Positions 33,621 through 42,048 of a stretch of DNA of 42,070 nt are shown here, in pieces (position 1 is the stretch's first letter; every line of letters starts with the position of its first letter). Source of the DNA: Dehalococcoidia bacterium (lineage in GTDB: Bacteria > Chloroflexota > Dehalococcoidia > SZUA-161); contig DUEY01000009.1 of assembly GCA_011174795.1 (NCBI GenBank), forward strand, positions 1 to 42,070, given 5' to 3'. Below the pieces are notes generated by a model. That model saw nothing but the letters and a program-made list of their open reading frames with translations, had not been told where the DNA came from and searched no databases. The position numbers and the translations under genes were made by a program.

Positions 33621-34586
33621 ATGAAGCAAAAACGCTTCCTCACCATATTGACCCTGATCTCGATTGTAGCAATACTGTCAGGCACAACTACCGTTTATGC
33701 TCAAACACCAACACCACCCACCCCTGCTGTTATAGATACCTATACTATCAAGAACATCGATGGCAGCGATGTTACCGAGGACTACCTGATGGCTGGGGAC
33801 ACCTATGAAATTTCTCTGGAGGTCAACGTCGGCGTCGACCTGGGAAATAACACACTGATCCTCTCCACCCCTCTGGGGAAAGTGGAGGATGTATACTGGC
33901 ATCTCGAAAACGATTATCCCGGTATTAATACAGAGACGTGGCAGCCAGGCCAGTCGGCGATTGAGTTCGCAGTTCTCGAGGGAATCGCCCAGCTTACGAT
34001 AACAGGGTTCGTACCCTCCGATTACACGTGGACAGAAATAGAAGGGTATAGCTACGTCCTCCATGCCATACGCGATGTCCCCCTGATAAAACTCTCGCTC
34101 GGTCCCGAAGGTACCGAGTTGGACCGGATCTCCATGGAGGTTAAGGACCAAGCAATTATAGCTTATGAACAGACCCTGATTGAGAAAGATGCCCTCCTCA
34201 AGACCACTGACGCCGACCCTAAATATGAAAAGCTCGCCACAGACATCATAGCCCATGCTCAGATAATGTACGTCAAGGGATACGTGGAGGACGCCACGAA
34301 ATTACTCAATACCATACCTGATTCCTCGGCAGACTTCCCGGTACCGGTGGAGGAAAAAACATTCCTGCCATACCTTATCGGTATTATCGCGCTTGCAGTA
34401 CTATTAATCATCTTCATTGCCCTGCTGTTCAAAGCGAGAGCAAACAGTAGCTTCATCCGCCAGCAAGTCGACGAAGAGGCTGGCCGGCTGGATGTTCTCT
34501 CAATAAGGGTATCCAAGATAGATAAACAACTCGCCAGAGACCTCGAACAGGTCAAGGAACAACTTGAGAGGATCAGCGGGAGGTGA
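33621..34586 (+). CDS. Secreted/membrane-anchored protein with C-terminal TM and cytosolic coiled coil (tubulin-like operon)
   Basis: N-terminal signal segment FLTILTLISIVAILSGTTTVYA, Pro/Thr linker, TM YLIGIIALAVLLIIFIALLF, then a helical tail ending QLARDLEQVKEQLERISGR. Confidence 0.8.
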   Translation: MKQKRFLTILTLISIVAILSGTTTVYAQTPTPPTPAVIDTYTIKNIDGSDVTEDYLMAGDTYEISLEVNVGVDLGNNTLILSTPLGKVEDVYWHLENDYPGINTETWQPGQSAIEFAVLEGIAQLTITGFVPSDYTWTEIEGYSYVLHAIRDVPLIKLSLGPEGTELDRISMEVKDQAIIAYEQTLIEKDALLKTTDADPKYEKLATDIIAHAQIMYVKGYVEDATKLLNTIPDSSADFPVPVEEKTFLPYLIGIIALAVLLIIFIALLFKARANSSFIRQQVDEEAGRLDVLSIRVSKIDKQLARDLEQVKEQLERISGR

Positions 34587-34590
34587 CCTC

Positions 34591-37302
34591 ATGGCTAAAG
34601 CCAGAAGTTACAATTCGTCCATACAACTCGTCGGCCTAGGGGGAGCGGGGACTAACATCATTGAAGCCTTTATAAATGACCGCAGAAATCTCATACCCCT
34701 TCTTAAGAGGGAAGGCATCCGGATATCATGCCTGGCGATCGACGTGGCGGACCATGATATACAAAGCCTGGATGCCGCAGTCAGAGACCTCTCGGATGAG
34801 TTGAGAGAAGAAGGCATTCCCTCGGATAAAATCTCCATCACCGCCAAGTCGGTTAAATTCCCCACCCCGGAAAGCATGTTCGACTTCATAAACAAATACC
34901 CCGAGTATCTGAGCCGCGAGGGAGTTAAACCCCCGAAGGATTACCAGCCCTGGCTGGCATCGTCCATGGATATCCCACCGCTGGCAGGTGGCGTCGGTCG
35001 CCGACGGGCTCTTTCCAAAGCTATATACGGGCTCAACTACCATCACCTGAAACTGCTGGACAACTACATGGACACCTTCAAGGAGCACCTGTTCACCTCC
35101 ACCATACAGCCTGTTGTTTTCGTGATCTACGGCCTGGGCGGCGGTAGCGGCAGCGGTATGGTTGTAGATTTCACCAGACATTTAAGGAGAAAGCTGGGCA
35201 GCGGCGTGCCTATAATTGGTCTATGTATTCTTCCCTGCTCCGGCGACGACCCACCGGCAAAAGGCACCTCTGCCTACAGCGCCCTTATCGAAAAAGGGCT
35301 CATCATCGATAAGCAGCAGAACGCTCAGGTAACCAAGCAATTCGGCAGTGTGTATGAAAACCCGTTCAGCGCCTTCCTGGTTATGCCCCTGGGCCCCGCC
35401 TACAGCAAGACCGCCAGCTTGATAGACGCTAAAAAGGTCATTGACGATGCCATTGTCGACGTCCTGATAAACTCACTCAACTTCGATCTGGCCGACCTGC
35501 TGAGCAATATCGGCTCCAACATCGATATGGAGGGCAAATGGCTCCATGTGCTGTCCACGATTACTATCAGCTATCCGGTAACCGAATTCATAGAGCTCTC
35601 TAAGATATACCTTGACCAGTTGGACAAAGTGCGCGCGCTGAGAAGAGAGAAGCGGGAAGTATACGGGGGAACTCACCCGACGGAAGCCGGCGGCGTCATT
35701 AAAATACTAGATATCTGCTACGGGGACCTGAAAGACATCTACCGCCAGCGACTAATCGATACGGGTAAGTACAATGCCGACAGCTTCGACGAAGCAGTTG
35801 ACAGCATGATAAACGCCGACCGCTCTGTGGAGACAGAATACATTATGCACCTCAAGGGGGTAGACGATCCCATCAGAAGCCAGATTAATGAGCTGGGTCG
35901 AGCGGTTATGGCGATAGGTCTTGATTCACCCGAAGGGACTGTTGAAGCGTTGATTCGCAAACAGTCATCAAAGCTCATCTCTTTAGGAGATTGCATCTCC
36001 AAGAACTACAGCGAGTTCCTGGCCGAAGTTAATGATATCCTCGATAACCTGCGGGATAGCCTGCCCAGTGCACAGCAGTTGACCGCCAAAGAAGTGCAAT
36101 TAGTCAACGATGTAACTGATCTTGCCTCGATGATAAGAAACTACCTTGTCGGCCTCAGAAACTATCTTGAGATTAAAAAGCTTGCCGACAGGCTTCAGAA
36201 AGAGCTTCTCAAAGGCAAGGACAGCGAGTCCCAACAGCTGGCGCTGAGCAAGGTAGAACGTATTATAAACCCCGAGCTGGTGGTGTTGTTCTCGTTATTG
36301 TCCTCTATGTTCACCCCAACGACTACCCAACTTAAAAGTATAGACTCGCTGCTGGTCAACTGCCGCCGTGTTAAGAGGGTAATAGAGGAGGAAATCGCGA
36401 GAATCACCTCCGACATCGATAACCTCGAACTCAACCGCAAGGCCAAGCAAGTCGAGAAGGGCCGGGCCGAGCGGGAGATGAAAGATATCAGATTTGGACT
36501 GTTCTCCGGCGGCAAGAAGAAGCTCTGGGACGAGCGTAAAAGGAAATTGGACCACGCCCTGGCATCGGTGGACGAGGACATCCGAATACTGAGTGAAGAC
36601 CTGGTCAAAGCCCAAGAGAAGATGTCCGAGTACTCGAACATTGAAAAAAGGTTCGAGGTCAATTCCGACTACCGTAAGCTTCTGGCGAATATCACAGATA
36701 TCTCCAACATCCACTACGAGAAGATGAACGAGATGGTCAAGGACAAGGGATTCTACAACCGAACAGCCGAGCTGACCGAGGACGTGCAACTGCGACTCAT
36801 GCAACGGATCCTGATTGAAGACGAGGCATCTCTCTCTAGCGAAAACATCCTCAGGGAGATAATCGACAAGGACCGCCTCAAGGAATACCTGTCGAGCGTG
36901 CTCGGCATCTTCAGGGTCCCGGGCGTCATGGGCCTGACCTCTGAATACAAGACGGACTATATCTGGTTTGCGGTAGTATCGCCACGCGGCATCTGGGACC
37001 ACGACCTGGCCGCAGACGTACGGGCGACGATGTCAGGATATGTAAAGGAGGACGCCTCGAGGAGTATAGCTATAAGAGAGATCGACTCTACCGACCCCTG
37101 GACGGTTCGGTTCATGGTAATTGCGGCAAAGGCAGAGCCACAGTATCTGGAATGCTTCGGCGAGATGAAGCATATATACCAGCACGCCACCGCCGAGGAA
37201 AGGGCGCTGGCACACTCATTCTTGCTGGAGCACGGCGTTCATGCGGCTGAGAGTAAGCCCAGTGCAGACAAGCCTGGAGCCACCATAAATGCTGAGCGGT
37301 GA
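34591..37302 (+). CDS. Tubulin/FtsZ-superfamily protein 1, large with C-terminal coiled-coil extension
   Basis: T1-like LVGLGGAGTNIIEAF; T4 signature YGLGGGSGSGM (35131-35160); T7-like NFDLAD (35479-35496) followed by LLSNIGSN; long charged helical C-terminal half; 903 aa. Confidence 0.8.
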   Translation: MAKARSYNSSIQLVGLGGAGTNIIEAFINDRRNLIPLLKREGIRISCLAIDVADHDIQSLDAAVRDLSDELREEGIPSDKISITAKSVKFPTPESMFDFINKYPEYLSREGVKPPKDYQPWLASSMDIPPLAGGVGRRRALSKAIYGLNYHHLKLLDNYMDTFKEHLFTSTIQPVVFVIYGLGGGSGSGMVVDFTRHLRRKLGSGVPIIGLCILPCSGDDPPAKGTSAYSALIEKGLIIDKQQNAQVTKQFGSVYENPFSAFLVMPLGPAYSKTASLIDAKKVIDDAIVDVLINSLNFDLADLLSNIGSNIDMEGKWLHVLSTITISYPVTEFIELSKIYLDQLDKVRALRREKREVYGGTHPTEAGGVIKILDICYGDLKDIYRQRLIDTGKYNADSFDEAVDSMINADRSVETEYIMHLKGVDDPIRSQINELGRAVMAIGLDSPEGTVEALIRKQSSKLISLGDCISKNYSEFLAEVNDILDNLRDSLPSAQQLTAKEVQLVNDVTDLASMIRNYLVGLRNYLEIKKLADRLQKELLKGKDSESQQLALSKVERIINPELVVLFSLLSSMFTPTTTQLKSIDSLLVNCRRVKRVIEEEIARITSDIDNLELNRKAKQVEKGRAEREMKDIRFGLFSGGKKKLWDERKRKLDHALASVDEDIRILSEDLVKAQEKMSEYSNIEKRFEVNSDYRKLLANITDISNIHYEKMNEMVKDKGFYNRTAELTEDVQLRLMQRILIEDEASLSSENILREIIDKDRLKEYLSSVLGIFRVPGVMGLTSEYKTDYIWFAVVSPRGIWDHDLAADVRATMSGYVKEDASRSIAIREIDSTDPWTVRFMVIAAKAEPQYLECFGEMKHIYQHATAEERALAHSFLLEHGVHAAESKPSADKPGATINAER

Positions 37303-37353
37303 CGAAAGTCCTCACCGTATTATCCTGGTCCTAAAGGCACGGGGAATTACAAA

Positions 37354-39711
37354 ATGGAAAACCTCCTGCCGCTTCTGCAAGCGGATGAAGGCTCAACCGA
37401 GCAACGGTTGCTCGAGCAGCAGTGGCAAATCAGGAGTAGCGAGACCGCTTTCCGAACACTGCTAAGCAGAGCGACTACAGTACTCATCTTCCTGGCATGC
37501 TCCCTCATTATCTACTATATGCTGCCCTTCTATCCGCCAGCGATGTCCATCTTCCTGGCAATAATATTCGCGCTTATCTCCTATCGCTGGCCCGCGGTAG
37601 CTCTATCACTAATGTTGCTATTCGCAGCACCCGCTTACTCATATCAACTCGGGGGCGCATTCTGGGCTCTGGGCGTCTTTATCGCTATAGCAGTGGTACT
37701 CCCGTTCTGCGTCAGCAGGCTGCCCGGCGCAATCCTGGGTTGCGCCGTCGGCACGGCTGCGGGCGTGCTCATGCTCACCCCCTATTTCCTGCTCTCCGTG
37801 CCGCTGCTTGCAGGTATCATCCTGTTCAGGCTGCCAGGGTCAAGTGCCAGTGGGGGGTGGGGGTTGTTCATGTTCCTTACTATCTACCTGCCCTTCCTCT
37901 TTATGGTGCAGCCCCCAGTCGCCCAGGGCGAGACTATCCCTCTCTTCACCACCGTCGACTACCCTAAACAACCATCCTTAAGCAACCTTGACCTGACCTC
38001 GCTGAAAACCGCTTTCCAGGGTCATACGAACGACGGTTTCAGCGGGTTCCCCGCAGCCTCGACCTATTTCGTGCAGGGCTGGAGCGGTATTGTTCTCATC
38101 CTGACAATGTTGATGGCAATCGTCGTCGCCCCACTAGCTTTGAAACTATCAACACGGATAGAAGAGACCAGGATCCTGCTTCGCGCGTTATCACCCTTCA
38201 TTATGCTATCAGCGATCAGCCTGATATTCCTGCTGCCACTGCAGCTACTGGAGAAGCCACTGGGCTATCACACCGGCTTTGACAGTTGGAACAACATCGG
38301 TATCTTCATCGGCATAATGCTTGCCTTCGGCAGCATAGGGCTTATCATGGAAGTCTGGTTCTGCCGTCGCAACATCAAGGTAAGACTCAGAGGCGACCTG
38401 GCTTACCTCTCCATAGAGCTTTACAGCCTTCTGGACAATGCCAAGAAGCGCCTGCGAGAGGTTTCCGCAGTATGTCACAATAAAGCTTTTGGTGACGAAA
38501 CGGCAGCAATTAAACAATGCGAAGAGAAAGTCTCACTCACGCTCGAAAGCGAAGCTGCAATGGGACTTCCGCGGTTGGAGATAAGCTGTAGCGAATTCCA
38601 GAATATGCAATCCCAGCTCTCGGACCTCCACCTCCGTCTCGAGACCAAACTATTGGATCATCTCGAAGAGTCAAGGCGCACCTACAAAGCTACGTTTGAT
38701 AAGGCGCTTGCACTGGGTATACCCTCCCTTCAGGATGTCACTCAGACGCTGCCACTCACCTCTAAAAAGCCGGACTATGAAAGCGCCCTCATGGAACAGC
38801 AAACGCTGAACAGAGCCCTCCGGGACCTCGCGGGCAAGCTCGTCTCAGCCGGAGACATGCTGGCCAAGACCATCAAGGAAGAGGTCGACCCCGAGTTCTC
38901 ACTGACCACCATTGATATCGGCCACGGCTTTATCGAGCAGGGAAGGTTCGACGAGGCGGCACGTACCATCTCAGAGGACCTGCAAATCATCGACGGCAGG
39001 ATAGAACGTTCCATTGTTGAGCTCTCAAGCAGAGTGATAAAAATAGCTAATGAATTCCAAAAAGTTGTCGCCTCACACCTGATACCCGTGTTTGAAACAA
39101 TCGGAGATTCTGACGCAATAAACAGATACAATGAGAAAGTTGATGCGCTGAAAACAGCGGCAACCTCCGTTCAGGGTTCCAGAACCCTTGCCGATATGAT
39201 TAAGATAGTCGAACAGAGCCGCAAGCTTACCGACCTCGCCACCACCACGGTGAACGAGCTTAGTAACCGGATTGATGTTATGGCGGAAGCTAACGACCGC
39301 AGATGCCCGGCAAGATACAACTGGGGGAAGAACACCCATACCGCTGGTGAAGCGCACCAGCTCCTGGAATCAATCGAATCCACACCCTCGGAAACCACCA
39401 TAAGCAGGCGCTTCGAGCTGATCGAGAAGTCAGTGAAAACAATAGAACAGCAGGCCAGGGTAGTCAAACAATACAGCCAGGCCAGCGAGTTCCTGGTCAA
39501 CTATCCCAACATTGAGTATACACTTCAGGATAAGCTGAGAACAAACGGCGGTATATCCAGTTCAGAGCTTCCTGTTAAGGCTAGATATGCTCTGGAATAT
39601 CTGAAGCTGCATGCAGCCTTGAATTATAACGATGTCACGTTCGACCCTAAGACCGGCAGCATCCAGCACACCCCTGATAAAAATAAAGGCCAGGACGAGA
39701 CAGCGAAATGA
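37354..39711 (+). CDS. Large polytopic membrane protein with long C-terminal coiled-coil domain
   Basis: 785 aa: multiple hydrophobic segments over the first ~340 residues, then ~440 residues of charged/helical sequence. Confidence 0.8.
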   Translation: MENLLPLLQADEGSTEQRLLEQQWQIRSSETAFRTLLSRATTVLIFLACSLIIYYMLPFYPPAMSIFLAIIFALISYRWPAVALSLMLLFAAPAYSYQLGGAFWALGVFIAIAVVLPFCVSRLPGAILGCAVGTAAGVLMLTPYFLLSVPLLAGIILFRLPGSSASGGWGLFMFLTIYLPFLFMVQPPVAQGETIPLFTTVDYPKQPSLSNLDLTSLKTAFQGHTNDGFSGFPAASTYFVQGWSGIVLILTMLMAIVVAPLALKLSTRIEETRILLRALSPFIMLSAISLIFLLPLQLLEKPLGYHTGFDSWNNIGIFIGIMLAFGSIGLIMEVWFCRRNIKVRLRGDLAYLSIELYSLLDNAKKRLREVSAVCHNKAFGDETAAIKQCEEKVSLTLESEAAMGLPRLEISCSEFQNMQSQLSDLHLRLETKLLDHLEESRRTYKATFDKALALGIPSLQDVTQTLPLTSKKPDYESALMEQQTLNRALRDLAGKLVSAGDMLAKTIKEEVDPEFSLTTIDIGHGFIEQGRFDEAARTISEDLQIIDGRIERSIVELSSRVIKIANEFQKVVASHLIPVFETIGDSDAINRYNEKVDALKTAATSVQGSRTLADMIKIVEQSRKLTDLATTTVNELSNRIDVMAEANDRRCPARYNWGKNTHTAGEAHQLLESIESTPSETTISRRFELIEKSVKTIEQQARVVKQYSQASEFLVNYPNIEYTLQDKLRTNGGISSSELPVKARYALEYLKLHAALNYNDVTFDPKTGSIQHTPDKNKGQDETAK

Positions 39712-40688
39712 GCACCGATAATGGCACAGATATTAACGGGACAATAGCAGGGCTGGAAGAGGAGCAACCGCTTGCCGAGTTTAAAAATGTGAAATTAGAG
39801 GGTAAAGGCAAGGGCAGGCTCTCCCTCACCAACAAGCGGATAGAGTTCGAGAATAAGAGCAGCCTCTTCTCCTCACAGCATGTTGAGTTCTCCGTGGAAC
39901 TCCCCAGGGTCTCCTCAGCCAAAGTGAAGAACTCATCCCTCGTCCTGGAATGGCTGGATGAGAACAACGAGCTTGTAGTCAGCCACCTGCATATGCCGAA
40001 AGGCGCTGATACCTCTAAACTGTGCCAAACCCTGAACAATATCATTAAATTTCTCAAATACGAAATCGATCAGCAAGACCAGAGGGCCCGCTATCAGGCG
40101 TTCCTGTGGAAAACCGCTCACCTCGTATGGGTTACGACAGGGTTGCTTTTACAGGTCGTCCGTGAACTTACCTATGAAGACTGGGAGTCAGTTGATGCCA
40201 CCCTCGCCGAAGCGAGAGAAGCAGCAAAAACCCTTGCCACAGAGGCCTCAATCGATATCACAGACCCGGTTCAGACGCTGGTAGCGACATCATCTTCCCG
40301 TGATGCGCCACTGGTACTGCAAACGATAATATCCACGCTGAAGGCCATAGGCACTTCCTTAAAAGACGGAGGTCCTGCTGCCAGCGAATGGCGGGAAGTA
40401 CCTCTCGATGACCCGTCAGGGCTGAATTGGCGTGATCTCCAGTATATTTTCCTCTTCGCCAGCAGGTACCGGCTCCTCTCCCTGTGGCACCAAATAGGTG
40501 ATACCAGGAAGATAAAGGATTCCCAGCCCCGTTTGGATACACTTCTCTCCATTCTGTCGGCGAGGACGGCTGTGGACCTGCAAGGCGGGATTGCGTCTAC
40601 AGATGAGCCTTCTGCCATAGCGGGCCCCACAGGCAAAGCAGCTCAGAACCTTGAATCATTACTGAAGACAAACGCAGGGATACCTTAA
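39708..40688 (+). CDS. GRAM/PH-like domain protein with helical C-terminus
   Basis: 326 aa; EFKNVKLEGKGKGRLSLTNKRIEFENKSS...ELPRVSSAKVKNSSLVLEW resembles a bacterial PH/GRAM beta pattern; ATGA overlap with the upstream gene. Confidence 0.65.
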   Translation: MSTDNGTDINGTIAGLEEEQPLAEFKNVKLEGKGKGRLSLTNKRIEFENKSSLFSSQHVEFSVELPRVSSAKVKNSSLVLEWLDENNELVVSHLHMPKGADTSKLCQTLNNIIKFLKYEIDQQDQRARYQAFLWKTAHLVWVTTGLLLQVVRELTYEDWESVDATLAEAREAAKTLATEASIDITDPVQTLVATSSSRDAPLVLQTIISTLKAIGTSLKDGGPAASEWREVPLDDPSGLNWRDLQYIFLFASRYRLLSLWHQIGDTRKIKDSQPRLDTLLSILSARTAVDLQGGIASTDEPSAIAGPTGKAAQNLESLLKTNAGIP

Positions 40689-40689
40689 G

Positions 40690-42048
40690 ATGGTTATCAA
40701 GAACCACGAGAATAGAGTTGTTAGTTGCCCCGCCAACCACCAGAATCCAGAAGGCTCCGAGCGCTGCAATACCTGCGGTCTACCCATTATAGATTATGAG
40801 AAGGAACTCGACCTCCTGCTGAAAACCCTGGCCGAGGAGGACCAGCATATTCGATTTGCCAAGGAAAAGATATTCCTGGGGATAGGGGACCAGGGCTGCA
40901 GGCTTGTCTATGACTTCTACCGTTCATGGGGTAAGAGCCTGCTGGGCTCAGAGTTCCTGATGATCGAGTCATCCGGTGAGTCCAAACGGTTTCTTAACTC
41001 GAGTACCGAGATGCCCTCGAAACAGCAGTACACAAGCCCGTTACTCTCACTCCATCTTCTGCCAATGGCTGCAAGCAAGCAGGTTGGATACTACGGCTTA
41101 GGCGAGCGCCTGGCCGCCAATGACCCAACGCTGGACGACCGCCTGCGCCGTTCTGGCATCAAGGCCTCGACTAAAAAGCAGTCCATCTTCCTGCTATCGG
41201 CCTTAGGTGGCGGTACCGGCAGCGGGGCTAGCCCCTTTACCCTCCAGCGGGCCAAGTCCATTAACCCCCACAGCAGGAGCATGGTTATAGCGGTGATGCC
41301 CGCCGCTGAGGAACCGGATAGCTCACACTTCAACGCCTATTGTTCGCTCTCACGTTTCATCAACTCCAGTAAGGGGCCTCTCGCGGATATGATAATCCTC
41401 GTTGACTACGACCGACTGATGAAGTTAAGGGGTGTAAGCAGCATGGGCGACGAAATGACAGGGGAATCGCTGCTATCCTACATGATAGCAACCTTATCAA
41501 GCGCTATTCCCGATATTAACTCCAGCCAGGTAGATCCCAGCTATCTGACCAAGATGAGCCGCTCCATGGGTGTTCACGCTTTCGTCCCCTGCATGGCTGT
41601 GGGTCGAAGTATGGAGATATTCGGCAGTATCGCCAACATCCTCGAGAGCGCCATGTCCTGTCCGCTGGCCCACATAGAAAAAGATTCAGTCATGATATCC
41701 TATATACTGATACAGGTGCCTGAAAGGTTAGCTTCATCCCTTCAAGAGGACAAAATCAAATCCGCACTCAATAAATGGAATAAAAACAATTTCCCACGCC
41801 TCAAGGGAAGCATCCTCCAACTTTCTCACTCCACCAATAAAGCAGACCGCATCGACCTCTTCCTCCTGCTCGGTGGCAATGGACTGGCTACAACAGCAAG
41901 GTCTGCCAAAGAAGGCTTCGACCGGTTCAAGGCAGTCGTTGATAGAAAGGACTGGGAGCAAGAGTTCGGGGTAACATCAAAAATAGTGCCCGAGGTGGAG
42001 AAGGCCATCAATTCGTACGACAGCAAGCTTGCGGAGATGGCAAATTAA
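40690..42048 (+). CDS. Tubulin/FtsZ-superfamily protein 2 with N-terminal zinc ribbon
   Basis: Zinc-ribbon-like CPANHQNPEGSERCNTCG; T1-like FLGIGDQGCRLVYDF; T4 signature LGGGTGSG (41206-41226). Confidence 0.75.
   Translation: MVIKNHENRVVSCPANHQNPEGSERCNTCGLPIIDYEKELDLLLKTLAEEDQHIRFAKEKIFLGIGDQGCRLVYDFYRSWGKSLLGSEFLMIESSGESKRFLNSSTEMPSKQQYTSPLLSLHLLPMAASKQVGYYGLGERLAANDPTLDDRLRRSGIKASTKKQSIFLLSALGGGTGSGASPFTLQRAKSINPHSRSMVIAVMPAAEEPDSSHFNAYCSLSRFINSSKGPLADMIILVDYDRLMKLRGVSSMGDEMTGESLLSYMIATLSSAIPDINSSQVDPSYLTKMSRSMGVHAFVPCMAVGRSMEIFGSIANILESAMSCPLAHIEKDSVMISYILIQVPERLASSLQEDKIKSALNKWNKNNFPRLKGSILQLSHSTNKADRIDLFLLLGGNGLATTARSAKEGFDRFKAVVDRKDWEQEFGVTSKIVPEVEKAINSYDSKLAEMAN

Follow-up and report, generated by a model that had tools for sequence, protein, structure and literature searches.

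A conserved five-gene operon of Dehalococcoidia encodes two divergent tubulin homologues with unlike T7 loops

A five-gene operon of Dehalococcoidia, O1-O5, encodes two tubulin homologues, O2 and O5, that differ at the catalytic T7 loop, together with two membrane proteins and one soluble protein. Judged by sequence, and for O5 also by a structural model, both are GTP-binding members of the tubulin superfamily. The initial annotation had called them two divergent tubulin-superfamily proteins, which is borne out by family models, by synteny in three orders and by the model of O5. There is roughly an even chance that the five genes make up a self-contained membrane-cytoskeleton module, in which O2 and O5 co-assemble, are held at the membrane, and act as an envelope scaffold or in membrane shaping.

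The operon occupies positions 33621-42048 of the window, which is the entire 42,070-base contig (C76) of a source genome of 1.8 Mb and 89.6% completeness. The five ORFs are co-directional on the + strand, to which all coordinates below refer. The ORF coordinates bear out the tight packing that was first described: gaps of 4 bases between O1 and O2, 51 between O2 and O3, and 1 between O4 and O5, and an overlap of 4 bases between O3 and O4. The genes carA, carB and nadE lie 5' of O1, followed by a gap of ~310 bases. The suspicion that the operon continues past the window end is ruled out; O5 is the last gene of the operon in the relatives, so the operon in the window is complete and not cut. Since the flanking genes vary between loci and the operon ends at O5, the five genes constitute the unit.

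Conservation of gene order in related genomes had been named as a test of the proposal, and the order O1-O5 is indeed kept at ~11 loci in three orders of Dehalococcoidia. The module is present in 6 of the 9 sampled genomes of the window's family; four relatives have the whole operon, with O1 frameshifted in one of them, and in one further genome a break separates O2 from O3. Two families, f11 and f12, each of another order, also carry O1-O5 in order, and O2 was found in 4/4 sampled genomes of the two other orders. Profile searches with O2 and O5 in 400 genomes across the phylum gave no further orthologue; the O2 profile matched the source genome alone, and the matches of the O5 profile were mostly FtsZ. 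The named close relatives of O2 are metagenome genomes of Chloroflexota/Dehalococcoidia. O2 is the best-conserved member of the operon (identity 80% near, 44% far) and O4 the least conserved (46% near, 16% far).

Several loci depart from the common arrangement. The frameshifted O1 is read in two frames (L073:15842-16804), reflecting either a frameshift or an assembly error. The broken operon belongs to a single-contig metagenome genome (G008:C1, CP070819.1; L071 and L072, at ~978 kb and ~648 kb), where ~330 kb separate O1 and a truncated O2 from O4, O5 and a truncated O3; this split is due to rearrangement or misassembly. A second copy of the module (G025:C185, L061) has O2-O5 and no detectable O1. 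We also note small homologous genes of no recognised family that overlap the start of O1 at two loci (L075:8897-9427 and L076:8687-9181).

O2 (34591-37302, 903 aa), whose start codon is backed by orthologues, is a Tubulin_2-type tubulin homologue. It scores above the cut-off for PF13809 Tubulin_2 (E 2.4e-10, 40.6 bits against 27) and also matches PF00091 (E 4.2e-7); PF13809 is matched by 9/9 O2 orthologues. The alignment reveals a near-invariant T1 loop with invariant glycines, GLGGAG (residues 15-20; 34633-34650), and a T4 signature loop (residues 183-189; 35137-35157) that is likewise near-invariant as GGGSGSG but reads GGGSGGG in one relative. The structural model of O2 has low confidence in the N-domain, so the identity of O2 rests on its sequence. 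Foldseek with this model returned nothing below 1e-3 and only weak CetZ/TubZ matches, and is uninformative because of the poor N-domain.

The predicted secondary structure of O2 follows the order of FtsZ: H7, T7, H8, S7 and H9 are followed by ~430 aa of helices, and then by S8, H10, S9, S10 and two helices. The helical, coiled-coil stretch (~345-775; 35623-36915) is missing from contiguous short relatives, and the elements from S8 onward (776-882; 36916-37236) complete the C-terminal domain as its second half. A direct profile alignment of the C-terminal part with FtsZ gave no match. The Rhodococcus protein RHA1_RS41540 matches the N-domain of O2 (E 1.5e-46) and also a stretch of 116 aa shortly before the O2 tail (770-885; E 1.2e-5 with a database size of 1e6), and has no coiled coil between the two regions. 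As this short relative matches both ends of O2, the coiled coil appears to be an insertion inside the C-terminal domain, and O2 is best read as a two-domain tubulin with its C-terminal domain split by a helical insert of ~430 aa.

O5 (40690-42048, 452 aa) is a full-length, two-domain tubulin homologue. It matches PF00091 (E 1.3e-9, 39 bits, cut-off 33), as do 11/11 O5 orthologues. Prediction of a tubulin fold had also been named as a test, and the full-length model of O5 is confident (mean pLDDT 82.9, pTM 0.80); Foldseek aligns it over ~450 columns with CetZ, OdinTubulin, BtubA and eukaryotic tubulins at E ~1e-16 to 1e-17. The model confidently predicts a complete tubulin fold. The T4 loop GGGTGSG (173-179; 41206-41226) is invariant in 11/11 orthologues, and the T1 loop is near-invariant. 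The N-terminus carries the motif C13-x3-H17-x8-C26-x2-C29 (40726-40794), in which H17, C26 and C29 are invariant and C13 is nearly so in the alignment. Modelled as short strands, this motif looks like a zinc ribbon and may bind a metal.

The best solved-structure matches of O5 are CetZ entries 4b45, 4b46 and 3zid; O5 shares the T1/T4/T5/T6 pattern with CetZ, and its GTPase domain and two-domain fold are close to those of CetZ. Unlike CetZ, O5 has the zinc-ribbon-like start and lacks the T7 acids. CetZ-like proteins of Dehalococcoidia have been noted (PMC9871819), and the source genome encodes one besides O5 on contig C67 (G000:C67; L077:4302-5414, L029). This gene scores 82 bits against the FtsZ model and has a GGGTGSG motif; its CetZ-like group is spread through Dehalococcoidia, and another genome of the class (L070, G368:C38) has two such genes in tandem, of 387 and 392 aa. 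A 50-row tree without archaeal CetZ and eukaryotic tubulin puts O5 in a long-branched clade of its own (100/100), apart from FtsZ and from the Dehalococcoidia CetZ-like clade, and makes O2 sister to the short Tubulin_2 pair. The two tubulins score 17.2 and 14.1 bits against TIGR00065 (FtsZ), far below the cut-off of 295. That O5 is a second ordinary FtsZ is rejected by this score and by the tree, and that it is a copy of the local CetZ-like protein is rejected by the tree.

The T7 loop sets the two tubulins apart. In O2 it reads NFDLAD (297-302; 35479-35496), with the N-x-D-x-x-D pattern of FtsZ; the position is [NS]FDL[ATQ]D in 9/9 orthologues, with both aspartates (D299 and D302) invariant, and Chloroflexota FtsZ has N[LV]D[FYL][AS]D. 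Alignment of profiles with hhalign places the O2 [NS]FDLxD at T7 of FtsZ. The corresponding region of O5 has no conserved acid among 11 orthologues, and the profile alignment sets Lys288 (41551-41553; T7/H8 position), which is K or R in 11/11, opposite the second FtsZ aspartate. By these alignments, O2 retains an FtsZ-type catalytic T7 loop, and O5 is without the T7 acid and has Lys or Arg instead. At the same place, alpha-tubulin carries the catalytic Glu and beta-tubulin a Lys, by which O2 would correspond to alpha and O5 to beta. A T7 acid in O2 with Lys/Arg in O5 resembles alpha/beta, BtubA/BtubB and AtubA/AtubB in logic. Unlike these heterodimers, O2 and O5 come from different branches of the superfamily and are not recent duplicates. 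Paired O2 relatives of Rhodococcus and Agrobacterium lack the T7 acids, and the catalytic assignment therefore rests on the Dehalococcoidia clade.

The same features bear on another arrangement, in which only O2 polymerises; O5 would be no filament subunit but serve as cap, nucleator or regulator, brought to a partner via its zinc-ribbon-like start. The complete T4 and T7 set is found in O2 alone, and O5 has the extra N-terminal module and evolves faster (within-family identity 61% vs 80% for O2). We nevertheless consider this arrangement unlikely, as O5 keeps the full two-domain fold, and the C-terminal domain is usually needed for longitudinal contacts.

O1 and O3 were described as an anchored protein with a single TM and a polytopic protein of 785 aa, and hydropathy agrees, giving one TM in O1 and ~8 in O3. 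O1 (33621-34586, 321 aa) is a bitopic protein by hydropathy, conservation and alignment; it comprises a signal-like N-terminal segment, an extracytoplasmic part (~30-245), the TM (252-270) and a cytosolic tail (272-321; 34434-34583). The tail is the best-conserved part of O1, with 84% identity within the family vs 57% for the ectodomain. Binding to a conserved partner in the cytoplasm would account for this, and the tail is a candidate docking site for such a partner. O3 (37354-39711) has its TMs, conserved among relatives, between residues 35 and 332, followed by a soluble domain of ~450 aa that appears helical with coiled coil. O4 (39708-40688, 326 aa) is a soluble protein whose N-terminus is rich in strands and resembles PH by eye only; the remainder is probably helical. 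The GRAM/PH label first given to O4 was not confirmed; no PH/GRAM match with statistical support was obtained in 11 orthologues or the PDB.

The membrane proteins would also suit a GTP-dependent transport or secretion device, with O3 as its channel or transporter and the tubulins as a static ring or gate on the cytosolic side. The ~8 TMs and large cytosolic domain of O3 and the extracytoplasmic domain of O1 fit such a device; no Pfam family, transporter or other, matches O3, and no conserved substrate or export genes adjoin the operon, which makes a device of this kind quite unlikely.

O2 belongs to a known family that was predicted earlier to act in membrane remodelling. This is the FtsZl1 family of Makarova and Koonin 2010, as first described with a coiled coil appended after the GTPase domain and a T7 loop that could not be identified (PMC2875224). 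Like FtsZl1/Tubulin_2 proteins, O2 passes the PF13809 cut-off, combines an N-terminal FtsZ-like domain, a long coiled coil and a C-terminal domain, and is encoded in an operon with uncharacterised membrane proteins in a host with a separate FtsZ. In contrast to FtsZl1, O2 has a recognisable T7, its coiled coil lies inside the C-terminal domain, and its alpha/beta end is continuous with the tubulin C-domain of the short relatives. A further difference is the distantly related second tubulin, O5, as a fixed partner. The genes for vWA, P-loop GTPase, kinase and OmpA proteins of FtsZl1 systems are absent from the operon; none of these domains was found in O1, O3, O4 or their orthologues.

Tubulin homologues also occur in the tubulin/GTPase conflict systems of Kaur et al. 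2020, who noted coiled-coil two-tubulin neighbourhoods in firmicutes (PMC7159879). Some GAP1-N2 systems resemble the operon in having two coiled-coil tubulins per neighbourhood; their GTPase, vWA and FNIII partners were not found around O1-O5. A related anti-phage or conflict function would accord with the patchy presence of the module within the window's family. We regard it as very improbable, because the operon lacks a TRAFAC GTPase, HSP70, vWA, MoxR or effector gene, PADLOC gives no match, and the five genes are constant and in fixed order with no variable effector.

Beyond the class, the nearest O2 relatives that were found are short paired proteins of ~510-570 aa on Rhodococcus and Agrobacterium plasmids. 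Such pairs, e.g. RHA1_RS41530/41540, are similar in that two tubulin homologues adjoin. They differ in that both members are of Tubulin_2 type with neither coiled coil nor T7 acids, and in their neighbours, which include amidase, CbbQ and vWA. On the Rhodococcus and Agrobacterium plasmids (L099, L100) the tubulin pair surrounds a ~100-aa protein, with an aliphatic amidase gene nearby. A segregation or positioning system of a mobile element or virus, of the TubZ/PhuZ type, would likewise employ tubulin-superfamily proteins, and a few viral contigs have a distant match, in the T4 region only. The virus scan gave no O2 relative, the phage set contained neither O2 nor O5, and no O5 was found on plasmids; the operon adjoins carAB and nadE, includes membrane partners, and has no DNA-binding adaptor by Pfam. 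A system of this type is extremely improbable, and a phage or plasmid origin of the module finds no support in the virus, phage and plasmid searches. The viral contigs (L102, L103 and L104) encode a protein ~35% identical to the O5 T4 region, possibly phage tubulins.

The source genome has a separate canonical FtsZ on contig C2. MreB and MurA were not found above cut-off in any of 13 operon-bearing or related genomes (13/13); going by their sizes, the weak matches would be DnaK, FtsA and EPSP synthase. This absence is consistent with a published survey, made with the same models, which reports that the ancestor of Dehalococcoidales and SAR202 lost genes for wall synthesis (PMC10608941). The three module-free genomes among the nine sampled from the window's family also lack MreB and MurA, and so the module is not needed for wall-less life; a link between the module and wall loss is suggestive only.

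For the membrane-cytoskeleton module, the following working model is proposed. O2 and O5 would assemble together, head to tail; in the resulting filament the acidic T7 of O2 would complete the active site over the GTP bound to O5, and the T7 of O5, with Lys/Arg in place of the acid, would leave the GTP bound to O2 unhydrolysed, as in alpha/beta-tubulin. The helical insert of O2 may extend outward from the filament and act as a spacer or cross-linker. The O1 cytosolic tail and the O3 cytosolic domain would hold the filament at the cytoplasmic membrane, with O4 as a putative adaptor. Of the membrane-anchored two-tubulin machine first envisaged, the tubulins and their membrane partners in a conserved operon stand, and the anchoring is a reasonable supposition; the O2 insertion, the O5 zinc-ribbon-like start and the T7 asymmetry were absent from the initial annotation. 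Given that the host retains an FtsZ of its own and that neither MreB nor MurA is detectable in it, the module would most likely scaffold the envelope or shape the membrane, and not carry out division.

In the literature searched, which included few subscription papers, neither the five-gene module nor the pairing of a Tubulin_2 protein with a tubulin of the O5 type is described, and the same holds for the inserted coiled coil and the T7 asymmetry; nor does it contain an experimental study of any FtsZl1/Tubulin_2 member. The module and its T7 asymmetry look new. The module offers a complete and compact parts list, with an expected location for the active site and a predicted two-tubulin polymer. 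A bolder and more tentative possibility is an independently evolved heteromeric tubulin cytoskeleton, in which tubulins of different branches co-polymerise with alpha/beta-type asymmetry, one of them carrying a large built-in coiled-coil arm, to form a cortical scaffold in cells without peptidoglycan synthesis or MreB. If true, catalytic asymmetry of paired tubulins would have arisen more than once, and bacteria that lack MreB or peptidoglycan synthesis would gain a candidate cortical cytoskeleton.
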